A stretch of DNA of 64,000 nt from Chloroflexota bacterium (GTDB lineage Bacteria; Chloroflexota; Anaerolineae; Anaerolineales; E44-bin32): positions 1-64,000 of the forward strand of contig JADFRG010000003.1 of assembly GCA_022561385.1 (NCBI GenBank), read 5' to 3'. The position numbers and the translations under genes are program-made. This document shows, piece by piece, positions 1,366 through 24,644 of the stretch. Within the stretch, counting starts at the first letter, position 1; each line of letters starts with the position of its first letter. Below the pieces are notes generated by a model. The model was not told the DNA's origin. It saw nothing but the letters and a program-made list of their open reading frames with translations, and did not search any database.

Positions 1366-1983
1366 TATTTGCTATTTACTTTTAAATCCCTGCTCAGCTC
1401 TTTAAAATAGTTCGAGTTCTTTTTTCAGTCAATTTGAATAACCCAATAAACATTCGGATTCGAGCCCAGTTTTCCACGGCTAATAGGCAGGTAACCGCAT
1501 TATGTTAACATATTGAACTCAATAATGGGTGAATAACAGGATCTGATCCCTAGATAGTGAGGTCGGAGTCTTATATGCTTTTGCCATGTCCATCCCGCCC
1601 AACCAGTCGGCCATGAAGAATTTGCCTCATCCCTTACCCTTCTGGCATAATAAGCAGCTTTGTCGATTTGACCTTGCCCCATGGGGAGAGGTTTGTGGCG
1701 TTTGGTCGCCATGACGGAGATTTTGGTGAGGGGCTGCTAAAAGAAAAATTCCACTCTTCGGAAGTCTGGCAATCTTGGGGATATCTAGACCATCCAAGGC
1801 CCATAACTTTGCGCCGCCAGCTCACGCTGACTTTACCTTTTCGGAGTGGAGTTACAGTTAGTATCGCGCTTCGTGCACGAAAGGTCAAATTAAGGAATAT
1901 TTTCACAACGGCGCCGGTTTAGGCTGGTTTGGGTGAGGTACTGGGCGGATTGTTCAATAGTATCCATGTTAGGTGTGAGGCAG
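1366..1983. other. intergenic stretch without a convincing gene
   Basis: About 620 bp between the methyltransferase and the AraC gene. It holds the second 61-bp repeat (1673-1733). Short reading frames on both strands (for example 1668-1922 and 1634-1906) have no recognisable domain and low-complexity composition, so they are not called. Base composition changes here from AT-rich to GC-richer sequence. This may mark the right edge of an acquired segment. Confidence 0.5.
1673..1733. repeat. 61-bp intergenic repeat, copy 2
   Basis: Gap-free partner of 335-395, with GCCCCATGGGGAGAGGT at the left and GGTGAGGGG at the right end. The palindromic half is CCCCATGGGG. The two copies flank the AT-rich methyltransferase gene in the same orientation. 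Confidence 0.5.
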
Positions 1984-22285: not shown

Positions 22286-24151
22286 CTACTCGACCGTAAC
22301 ACTTTTTGCCAGATTGCGCGGTTGGTCCACGTCCGCACCCCGGAGCACCGCGATATGGTAGGCCAGGAGCTGCAGCGGGATTATGGTCGTGACCGGATTG
22401 AGCAGCCAGGGGGTTTCGGGAACCCAAAGAATGTGGTCCGCAACTTCGGATATGAGATCATCTCCGTCGGTCGCCACCGCGATCACCACCCCACCCCTGG
22501 CTTTGGTCTGCTCCACCTGGCTGACGGTTTTCTCGTACCAGGGATCCTGCGGGCATATGACGATTACCGGCATGTGCTCATCTATCAGCGCAATCGGACC
22601 GTGCTTCATCTCTCCCGCAGGGTATCCTTCGGCGTGAATATAGGAGATCTCCTTCAACTTTAGAGCCCCCTCGTATGCGGTCGGCATGTTGATGCCTCGC
22701 CCCAGGTAGAGGCAGTGGTCAATATCTTTCATGTGCCGCGCGATCCGCTCGGCCTGATCGCTGCGATCCAGGGACTTTCCCACCAGGTCCGGCACGCGCC
22801 TCAAATCCGCGACCAATCGTCGACGGTCGGCCTCCTCGATCGTCCCCCTGAGCTCCGCCAGGAGCACGGCCAGCATATATAAATCCACGAGAGGGGCGGT
22901 ATAGGCCTTGGTGGAGGCCACTCCGATTTCGGGGCCGGCAAACATGCTGATATAGCTGTCCGCGGCTCGCATCGCCTGCGAACCAATCACATTAACGATG
23001 CTCCAGATCTCGGCGCCGCGCGCGCGGGCTTCCTCCATTGCTGCCAGGGTATCCGCCGTCTCTCCGGACTGGCTGATGGCCAGGACCACCGTCCCCTCAT
23101 CTACCAACGGCTCCCGGTAGCGAAATTCCGAGGCGATATCGACCTCGACCGGAAGCCTGGCCAGACGCTCGATCAGGATCTTGCCCACCATGCCTGCGTG
23201 CGCGGCAGTTCCACAAGCGATGATAATGATCTTACGGATGTTGCGGGCCGAATTTTCGTCGAGCTCCAGATGCTCGAACCGCACCCGACCGGCCTTAAAA
23301 TCCGCCCGGCCGCCGATGGTGTCGGTGAGGGATCGCGCCTGCTCATTAATTTCCTTGAGCATGAAGTGTTTGTATTCACCTTTTTCGGCAGACACCGGAT
23401 CCCACGGCACGGTCTGGACTTCCAACTCTACCGGTTCCCCGTCCAACGTATAGGCCTCAAAGCCGTCCGCGGTGATAACTGCCATCTGGCCCGAATCAAG
23501 GAATGCCATCGTGCGAGTGTGTTCGAGGATGGCCGGAATATCCGATGCCACGAACATCTCTCCCTCCCCTATTCCAATGACCACCCCCCCTGCGTTTCCC
23601 AGTCGGGCGGCTACGATTTTGTCCGGCTCGCGGGCGGATAACAACACAATTCCGTGGGCTCCTCGCAGGTGCCCCAGGGCCATACGCGAGGCCTCGACAA
23701 TACCGCCCGCCTCCCCCGGGGATCCTCCGGAATTCGCAAACAGATAACGCTCTATCAAATGCGCAATCACTTCTGTATCGGTATCCGAGCTGAATTTAAC
23801 GCCCTCTGCCGATAGCTCCTCCTTGAGCGAAAGAAAATTCTCCACGATGCCATTGTGGACCAACACCACCTCGCCGGATTCGCTGGTGTGGGGATGGGCA
23901 TTCCGGGCGCTGGGCTCGCCGTGAGTGGCCCAGCGCGTGTGCCCGATGCCGATCGTACCTTCCATAGGCGAGTCGGCCAGGAGCGCGCCCAAATTCTCAA
24001 TTTTTCCCGCGTCGCGACGGATCTCTATCTTGCCGGCATGTACAATGGCCAGGCCCGCCGAATCGTAGCCCCTGTATTCCAGGCGTTTGAGTCCATCGTA
24101 AATAATGGGGGTTGCATCGCGCGACCCGACATAGCCGACGATTCCGCACAT
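22286..24151 (-). CDS. glmS: glutamine-fructose-6-phosphate aminotransferase (isomerizing)
   Basis: Makes glucosamine-6-phosphate from fructose-6-phosphate and glutamine, the entry to amino-sugar and peptidoglycan precursors. 621 residues. Cys2 (MCGIVGYVG) is the glutaminase nucleophile, with GHTRWATHGEPS and HNGIVEN in the amidotransferase half. Two SIS domains follow (ISQSGETADTLAAMEEAR, EVASTKAYT-like GVASTKAYTAP), and the C-terminus is NLAKSVTVE. AGGAG lies 9 nt before ATG 24151. A ribozyme-like leader precedes it, suggesting glucosamine-6-phosphate feedback on the mRNA. Confidence 0.97.
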   Translation of the reverse strand: MCGIVGYVGSRDATPIIYDGLKRLEYRGYDSAGLAIVHAGKIEIRRDAGKIENLGALLADSPMEGTIGIGHTRWATHGEPSARNAHPHTSESGEVVLVHNGIVENFLSLKEELSAEGVKFSSDTDTEVIAHLIERYLFANSGGSPGEAGGIVEASRMALGHLRGAHGIVLLSAREPDKIVAARLGNAGGVVIGIGEGEMFVASDIPAILEHTRTMAFLDSGQMAVITADGFEAYTLDGEPVELEVQTVPWDPVSAEKGEYKHFMLKEINEQARSLTDTIGGRADFKAGRVRFEHLELDENSARNIRKIIIIACGTAAHAGMVGKILIERLARLPVEVDIASEFRYREPLVDEGTVVLAISQSGETADTLAAMEEARARGAEIWSIVNVIGSQAMRAADSYISMFAGPEIGVASTKAYTAPLVDLYMLAVLLAELRGTIEEADRRRLVADLRRVPDLVGKSLDRSDQAERIARHMKDIDHCLYLGRGINMPTAYEGALKLKEISYIHAEGYPAGEMKHGPIALIDEHMPVIVICPQDPWYEKTVSQVEQTKARGGVVIAVATDGDDLISEVADHILWVPETPWLLNPVTTIIPLQLLAYHIAVLRGADVDQPRNLAKSVTVE

Positions 24152-24186
24152 GGATGTTCTCCTGAGTTTAGTTACAAAGCTGAGGC

Positions 24187-24405
24187 CACTGTCCGGGTAT
24201 TGGCCGCGGCGTTACCGCCTCGGCGTTGTTCCCAGGTACCGTATAAAGAAAGGTGCGGGCGGTGGCACGCCCGGAGGGCATCCGCTGATCGTTCGATATT
24301 CCCGGTCCGGCGGTGGAGAGCCGCCGGTTTGCTCCGGTTAGCCCCGCCGCGCGGCGGGGAACCCTCTCCCTCGTCACCCTGGCCTATCGCCAGGGCCTTG
24401 CGCTT
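24187..24405 (-). ncRNA. glmS ribozyme-like leader RNA with a GC-rich insertion
   Basis: Read on the minus strand, the glmS leader follows the glmS ribozyme order. AAGCGCAAGG (cleavage expected before the G at 24403) is followed by a P1 hairpin CCCTGG...CCAGGG, then TGACGAGGGAGAGGGTT, then ATATCGAACGATCAGCGGATG with GCCCTCCGGG, a P3-like hairpin CGGGCG...CGCCCG, and a P4-like domain (CCTGGGAACAA ... CCAATACCCGG) ending ~35 nt before the glmS start. These segments match the conserved blocks of Bacillus glmS ribozymes. Between AGGGTT and TATCGA lie about 60 extra nt forming two GC-rich hairpins (24318-24360 region), absent from the Bacillus RNAs I remember. Known role: self-cleavage with glucosamine-6-phosphate as cofactor. 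Recognised by eye; no covariance search was run. Confidence 0.8.
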
Positions 24406-24476
24406 ACCTTTCCAGCATAGGCTCGCTGCTCCCTTTCACCTTCCTTTCCTGATGCTCCCAGCACAACGGGGCCGAC

Positions 24477-24482
24477 ATTATA
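24477..24482 (-). promoter_or_regulatory. -10 box of the glmS promoter
   Basis: Minus strand TATAAT preceded by TG. It lies ~70 nt before the ribozyme cleavage site, giving a leader of ~320 nt in total. The -35 box is not clear. Confidence 0.55.
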
Positions 24483-24569
24483 CACGCCTCCCCTATGATA
24501 GTCCTTAGCATGCGGTCCCTCCGCATGATTGCGGCCGCTAAGATCGGGGTCCGAATTCTTTAAAGTAAT

Positions 24570-24644
24570 GTCATTGCGAGTGCAGCGAAGCAATCTCCTC
24601 CCGGGTATTGGGGATTGCTTCGTCGCTACGCTCCTCGCAATGAC
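24570..24644. repeat. intergenic palindromic repeat (CATTGCGAG type)
   Basis: An inverted repeat with outer ends GTCATTGCGAG and CTCGCAATGAC and inner arms GCGAAGCAATC / GATTGCTTCGTCGC. This is the well-known dispersed hairpin seen between genes in many bacteria. Lying 18 nt after the plsC stop, it could also act as an mRNA end or stabiliser. Confidence 0.8.

Follow-up and report, generated by a model that had tools for sequence, protein, structure and literature searches.

The glmS leader analyzed here carries a GC-rich insert close to what looks like a catalytic core, which raises the question whether it still encodes a glmS ribozyme and what the insert means. The window, i.e. the whole stretch of 64,000 nucleotides from a Chloroflexota bacterium, contains this RNA at 24186-24413 (-), within the 5′ leader of glmS, whose start at 24151 follows approximately 35 nt downstream. 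In a permissive scan, the whole RF00234 model aligned to 24243-24415 (-) with 32.9 bits (E 4.4e-6) and a 69-base insertion at the loop. As the curated gathering cut-off of this family is 37 bits, pipelines using it miss this copy. With default settings, Rfam accordingly did not list the glmS RNA of the window; the sole match obtained was a c-di-GMP-I riboswitch (RF01051) at 1757-1847 (-), whose 47.8 bits exceed the cut-off of that family. A covariance model made from 27 related RNAs located upstream of nitrogen assimilation genes (the sister RNAs described below), with no glmS leader in the training set, matched the window RNA with 100.8 bits (E 7.5e-24). Chance resemblance was ruled out by both E values and by the covarying structure. 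Rfam matches to suhB, Ms_AS-5, Xoo2, Pseudomon-groES and NEAT1_2 at the same place were far under their cut-offs and regarded as chance, and no family other than RF00234 was supported for the window RNA or for L001, its counterpart elsewhere in the source genome. The downstream open reading frame encodes GlmS. Thus, the identity proposed by the initial annotation was confirmed, and by descent and structure the window RNA is almost certainly a glmS ribozyme. Its parts are listed below, P2.2 being numbered according to PMC7125110.

24407-24413 (-): P0 5′ strand GGAAAGG, complementary to 24254-24248 and upstream of the cleavage site
24405-24396 (-): AAGCGCAAGG block, from sequence
24403-24404 (-): predicted self-cleavage site A24404 (A-1) / G24403 (G1), from the RF00234 alignment; G1 is invariant and A-1 nearly invariant in both glmS leaders and sister RNAs
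24397-24402 (-): P2.2 5′ strand C2-G7 (CGCAAG); CG/GC pairs invariant in glmS leaders
24376-24396 (-): P1 hairpin; 96.9% of cells paired, double changes in 5/7 pairs (32-leader alignment)
24369-24375 (-): GACGAGG, comprising G26, A27 and the P2.1 5′ strand C28-A30 with the catalytic guanine, from sequence; ACGAG is invariant in every glmS leader and sister RNA tallied
24362-24366 (-): P2 5′ strand GAGGG, 99.4% paired, within the GAGGGTT block (24366-24360)
24359-24300 (-): insert
24342-24359 (-): insert hairpin H1, CCCCGCC-GCGC-GGCGGGG; 97.7% paired, 7/7 pairs with compensatory double changes
24338-24341 (-): CTAA linker between H1 and H2; UAA invariant in sisters, AA nearly so in glmS leaders
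24302-24337 (-): insert hairpin H2, base CCGG/CCGG plus an inner GC-rich stem of variable length; 95.3% paired, double changes in 4/4 base pairs
24293-24297 (-): ATCGA, P2.1 3′ strand and cofactor pocket; P2.1 pairs invariant
24279-24287 (-): CAGCGGATG, P2.2 3′ strand and core, nearly invariant
24274-24278 (-): P2 3′ strand CCCTC (32-leader alignment)
24256-24273 (-): P3 hairpin (32-leader alignment)
24248-24254 (-): P0 3′ strand ACCTTTC, immediately 3′ of P3, from complementarity and the strand-swap test
24186-24236 (-): P4 domain, with P4 CCTGGG/CCCGGA and the inner P4.1 hairpin 24224-24203 (GGTAAC loop, CCAA), from sequence; the counterpart of this hairpin covaries in sister RNAs
24158-24163 (-): Shine-Dalgarno-like AGGAGA of glmS, from sequence
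22286-24151 (-): glmS, glutamine-fructose-6-phosphate aminotransferase, 621 aa (ORF; Pfam SIS and GATase domains)

All conserved blocks named by the initial annotation were located on the minus strand, read over 24050-24600, in the order and at the positions given there, and its cleavage site before G24403 agrees with the RF00234 alignment. The family was matched even with the insert unmasked, so that the case considered there, a missing match after masking, did not arise. The start of the RNA had to be moved about 8 nt upstream, since the P0 5′ strand lies upstream of the cleavage site. The core includes the P2.1 and P2.2 pairs, A-1, G1 and GACGAGG; its double pseudoknot (P2, P2.1, P2.2) is complete, and the P2.1 and P2.2 pairs are invariant across 32 leaders. 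Plentiful glucosamine-6-phosphate (GlcN6P) would bind this core and lead to cleavage between A24404 and G24403, upon which the glmS mRNA would be lost or silenced. In Bacillus, an RNase J type enzyme clears the cleaved glmS mRNA; a homologue of RNase J is encoded in the source genome.

The insert of about 60 nt indeed consists of two GC-rich hairpins, both covarying. The placement near the core was correct in general, the precise site being after the 5′ strand of P2 and before the 3′ strand of P2.1. In 32 glmS leaders of the same order, a 36-pair structure had 95.6% of its cells paired and 22 pairs with double changes, while shuffled alignments reached 79.6% (0/500 as good) and slid ones about 50% or less. 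The comparison with other Anaerolineae leaders suggested in the initial annotation revealed that the Anaerolineales as a whole share the insert, with covariation in both hairpins; it is a trait of the lineage and no oddity of this genome. Both hairpins also occur in several Chloroflexota families outside this order, and other families (e.g. L262, L270, L280, L283) have a short canonical loop and no insert. A local accident or an assembly error was excluded by conservation and covariation. Kept and covarying within the order and patchy in other families, the insert is, judging from these alignments, an old, structural and lineage-specific trait. H1 and H2 extend the P2-P2.1 loop and replace no catalytic element; their role is probably to support the core from its outer side. 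From the low RF00234 score one might conclude that the insert left a weakened or dead ribozyme. This is hardly credible because the score is accounted for by the length and GC content of the insert, which moreover is present and covarying in dozens of genomes before intact glmS genes. Structurally, the window RNA represents a new variant; its predicted function is ordinary.

The second RF00234 match in the source genome (L001; G000:C18:82571-82794 (-)) is followed, approximately 320 nt downstream, by an ORF for glutamine synthetase. With 36.1 bits it is slightly under the cut-off, which other RNAs of this kind exceed (L013, 47.7 bits; L020, 44 bits, glnA-linked; L024, 40.1 bits, glutamate synthase). 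RF00234 matches were detected in 80 of 101 related genomes, many of which have two. Sorted by downstream gene with the help of Pfam, they fell into RNAs linked to glmS and sister RNAs linked to glutamine synthetase, a glutamate-synthase operon or an ammonium transporter. The first gene of the glutamate-synthase operon at L173 is followed by genes for a full PF01645 protein (290 bits) and for a GXGXG/GATase protein. The sister-trained model matched glmS leaders and sisters in 114 of 400 genomes across the phylum; of 40 further matches fetched, 33 came from outside the order, and all 33 precede glmS.

A scan of named genomes with a pattern defined by P2 and P3 only, leaving position 4 and the gene unspecified, yielded 119 loci. 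Among the 80 loci listed, all are from Chloroflexota except one in an archaeal MAG (L188), which lacks the core and was discarded as a spurious match; Bellilinea caldifistulae, Levilinea saccharolytica, Pelolinea submarina and Longilinea arvoryzae are included. The first downstream gene was glnA in 63 cases, ada in 28, eamA in two and that of glutamate synthase (gltB2) in 16, whereas glmS came first at none of the 119 loci. No target was assigned to the remaining ten, seven of which end at contig ends. The ada gene encodes AraC and O6-methylguanine methyltransferase domains. All 23 loci starting with ada or eamA for which enough DNA was available have glnA next, so the idea of two unrelated target sets was dismissed, and 93 of the 119 matches lead glnA or ada-eamA(-glnA) operons. 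L115-L122 and other loci of family f11 exemplify a glnA operon opening with the AraC/O6-methylguanine methyltransferase gene and an EamA transporter gene. One sister RNA outside the pattern set precedes the ammonium transporter gene amt.

In a tree of 87 RNAs, all 32 sisters formed one clade (support 0.957), the underlying alignment being fitted to the sister-trained model, which may favor sister monophyly. Two glutamate-synthase leaders with ordinary C4/G26 cores (L016 and L131) were placed outside this clade. The glutamine riboswitch model RF01739 gave no gathering-level match to L001. The literature covered, for the most part open-access papers, contained no report of the Chloroflexota glmS insert or of copies at nitrogen genes; as far as searched, this kind of RNA before glutamine synthetase was previously unreported.

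Some loci deviate from this picture. In another Chloroflexota class, a glmS-type RNA (AGCGCACGG; L128, 1501-1722 (-)) precedes a DegT/DnrJ/EryC1 aminotransferase gene and not glmS, possibly a third kind of target. Four RNAs of family f8, g20 (L095, L096, L099, L101) located before a glutamate-synthase operon look degenerate, the 5′ half of the core being odd or missing and P3/P4 still recognizable. For the sister RNA of Longilinea arvoryzae (L167; NZ_DF967972.1, ~786-981; 162.9 bits), 7 kb of sequence contain no known target; the only ORF that follows encodes 46 aa, and the RNA lacks its terminator half.

How far the sisters have departed from the glmS ribozyme can be read from their cores. 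In 27 sisters, a structure of 50 pairs was 95.5% paired (0/500 shuffles), with the P2.1 pairs and four named P2.2 pairs invariant. ACGAG and G1-G3 are invariant in 162 sisters. In both groups, positions 1, 2, 3, 7, 27-31, 52 and 55-57 do not vary, and -1 and 54 hardly do. Position 4 is G, U or A and never C in all 162 sisters, but C in 95 of 102 glmS leaders; the seven exceptions are mostly duplicates of sisters (e.g. L107-L109, L111, L112) that strayed into the glmS set. G26, nearly invariant in glmS leaders, is free in the 162 sisters. The C4-G54 pair and the G26 base triple are therefore absent from the sisters. In those with AGCGGCUG and AGCGACUG, P2.2 forms with UCAGCGG (C5-G54, U6-A53, G7-C52) and leaves a bulge at position 4, while AGCGUAUG pairs U4-G54 and L030 has U4-A54. 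According to PMC7125110, position 4 is part of P2.2 and G26 of a base triple, both outside the pocket, and P2.2 bulges shifted likewise recover part of the activity in Tte, making a strict need for the C4-G54 pair and the G26 triple doubtful. The sisters can be regarded as natural variants in which the P2.2 bulge would have moved to position 4 (or been replaced by a U4-G54 wobble) and G26 been released; the loss of C4 and G26 could alter the rate or the ligand. At the cleavage site, the information content of A-1 was 1.81 bits, in a tally favoring A where two start sites are possible (in the unbiased alignment A1 it is still A in 25/27), compared to 0.40 at -2 and 0.32 at -3. A high value next to a variable flank is as expected if cleavage matters in the sisters.

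Downstream of the core, glmS leaders and sisters share a strand with several possible partners. P0, formed by the segment 5′ of the cleavage site and the strand following P3, was found de novo by RNAalifold in the sister alignment (86% paired). Strands were then compared with swapped partners. For P0, own partners gave a mean of -8.00 kcal/mol against -7.69 for the best swap in sisters, and -9.31 against -8.49 in glmS leaders. The 3′ half of the post-P3 strand also pairs with the Shine-Dalgarno sequence in same-order glmS leaders (-13.12, best swap -12.48) and, in sisters, with the GGAAGGG that precedes the terminator (-14.10, best swap -13.56), and GGGC of this strand pairs with GCCC in the sister terminator (-10.22, best swap -9.80). 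Own strands thus outpaired swapped ones for P0, P5, the antiterminator and the anti-SD; the negative control, F5 against the Shine-Dalgarno sequence, gave no signal in glmS leaders. A clear anti-Shine-Dalgarno stretch was not seen in the window's own leader. Hairpins resembling intrinsic terminators were present in 123 of 153 sister leaders, in 4 of 106 glmS leaders and in none of 153 shuffled sequences.

Sharing of this kind points to a relay that cleavage would release. One side of the post-P3 pyrimidine strand would pair in P0 with the segment 5′ of the cleavage site, and its other side with a downstream element, namely the Shine-Dalgarno sequence in many glmS leaders and the GGAAGGGC strand before the terminator in sisters; cleavage would free it and switch expression off. 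Equilibrium folding of 119 sister leaders without pseudoknots did not reproduce the expected cleavage switch. The terminator and the S:Q helix formed with and without the 5′ part, the terminator pairs (9.51 with, 9.89 without) shifting only slightly in the predicted direction, and P0 seldom appeared (0.20 expected pairs). In 115 of the 119, the terminator (-15.4 kcal/mol) was more stable than the antiterminator duplex (mean -10.2). Since folding revealed no coupling, the switch would have to operate kinetically or through the folded core, unless it is wrong, and we put it forward as a speculative proposal.

This result bears on the view that terminator and ribozyme act independently, the cleaved mRNA being open to attack by RNase J, as in Bacillus, and another regulator making use of the terminator. 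The RNase J homologue and the lack of coupling in the folding test would agree with it, but strand covariation ties P0, the post-P3 strand and the strand before the terminator together, and such independence seems somewhat unlikely. The terminator and the candidate antiterminator are unusual for a family based on cleavage and might also indicate that the sisters are plain riboswitches which bind GlcN6P or another ligand and switch the terminator without cleaving. On the other hand, the catalytic guanine is invariant, and A-1 and G1 are conserved beside a variable flank, for which a non-cleaving aptamer has less need; we consider this reading unlikely. It is also conceivable that the sisters, while retaining the glmS fold, now respond to a nitrogen signal, e.g. 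glutamine, as the glutamine riboswitches of cyanobacteria do on similar genes. The nitrogen assimilation regulon, the monophyly of the sisters and the fact that C4 and G26 are altered consistently throughout the class would fit. However, the GlcN6P pocket and the active-site nucleotides are unaltered, and the changed positions lie in P2.2 and the base triple, not in the pocket (PMC7125110). Furthermore, the ordinary cores of L016 and L131 outside the clade imply that GlcN6P sensing was seemingly recruited to glutamate-synthase and nitrogen genes more than once. A change of ligand is thus quite unlikely.

From the unaltered pocket and the conserved cleavage site we infer that the sister RNAs are, rather likely, GlcN6P-dependent ribozymes. 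To our knowledge of the survey literature, glmS ribozymes are almost confined to glmS mRNAs. GlmS uses glutamine. GlcN6P is a feedback inhibitor of enterobacterial glutamine synthetase (PMC6316151), and both facts combined would make it a sensible feedback for GlcN6P to repress glnA, glutamate synthase and amt. By way of the sisters, an abundant amino sugar would lower nitrogen assimilation besides glmS, so that a signal from cell-wall sugar metabolism would reach nitrogen genes. The best explanation overall, held with good confidence, is a glmS ribozyme in the window and sister GlcN6P ribozymes on nitrogen operons. Tentatively, a clade of Anaerolineales glmS ribozymes may have moved to glnA, glutamate synthase and amt, with GlcN6P as a global nitrogen feedback and cleavage coupled to the terminator through the relay strand. 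If true, this regulon, which spans glutamine synthetase, ammonium uptake and glutamate synthase, would be the first of a glmS ribozyme beyond amino-sugar synthesis. It might also be the first case of ribozyme cleavage operating a transcription terminator. The regulon would further place in RNA the GlcN6P feedback on glutamine synthetase that is enzymatic in enterobacteria (PMC6316151). The cultured species with sisters, B. caldifistulae, L. saccharolytica, P. submarina and L. arvoryzae, make the model testable.

The window RNA and the RF00234 ribozymes of Bacillus subtilis and Thermoanaerobacter tengcongensis have in common the gene context, the cleavage-site sequence, the pocket nucleotides and P1, P2, P2.1, P2.2, P3 and P4 with a purine-rich internal loop. 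What separates them are two additional hairpins between P2 and P2.1, a P0 helix with a segment upstream of the cleavage site, and A53 in place of G53 with a shifted P2.2 bulge. The sisters differ further at C4 and G26 and by their nitrogen genes and terminators. In the 2011 survey of McCown, Roth and Breaker (RNA 17:728), all but two of 463 ribozymes reportedly resided in glmS mRNAs, so that nitrogen-gene copies would not have been described there. The same survey reportedly includes Deinococcus-Thermus variants with extra stems inside the catalytic core, which would resemble the Chloroflexota RNAs in this respect. The glutamine riboswitches of type 1 (glnA RNA, RF01739) and type 2 (Downstream-peptide) are, like the sisters, associated with glutamine synthetase and its regulators (PMC6316151), but they are cyanobacterial, have an unrelated fold and do not self-cleave.
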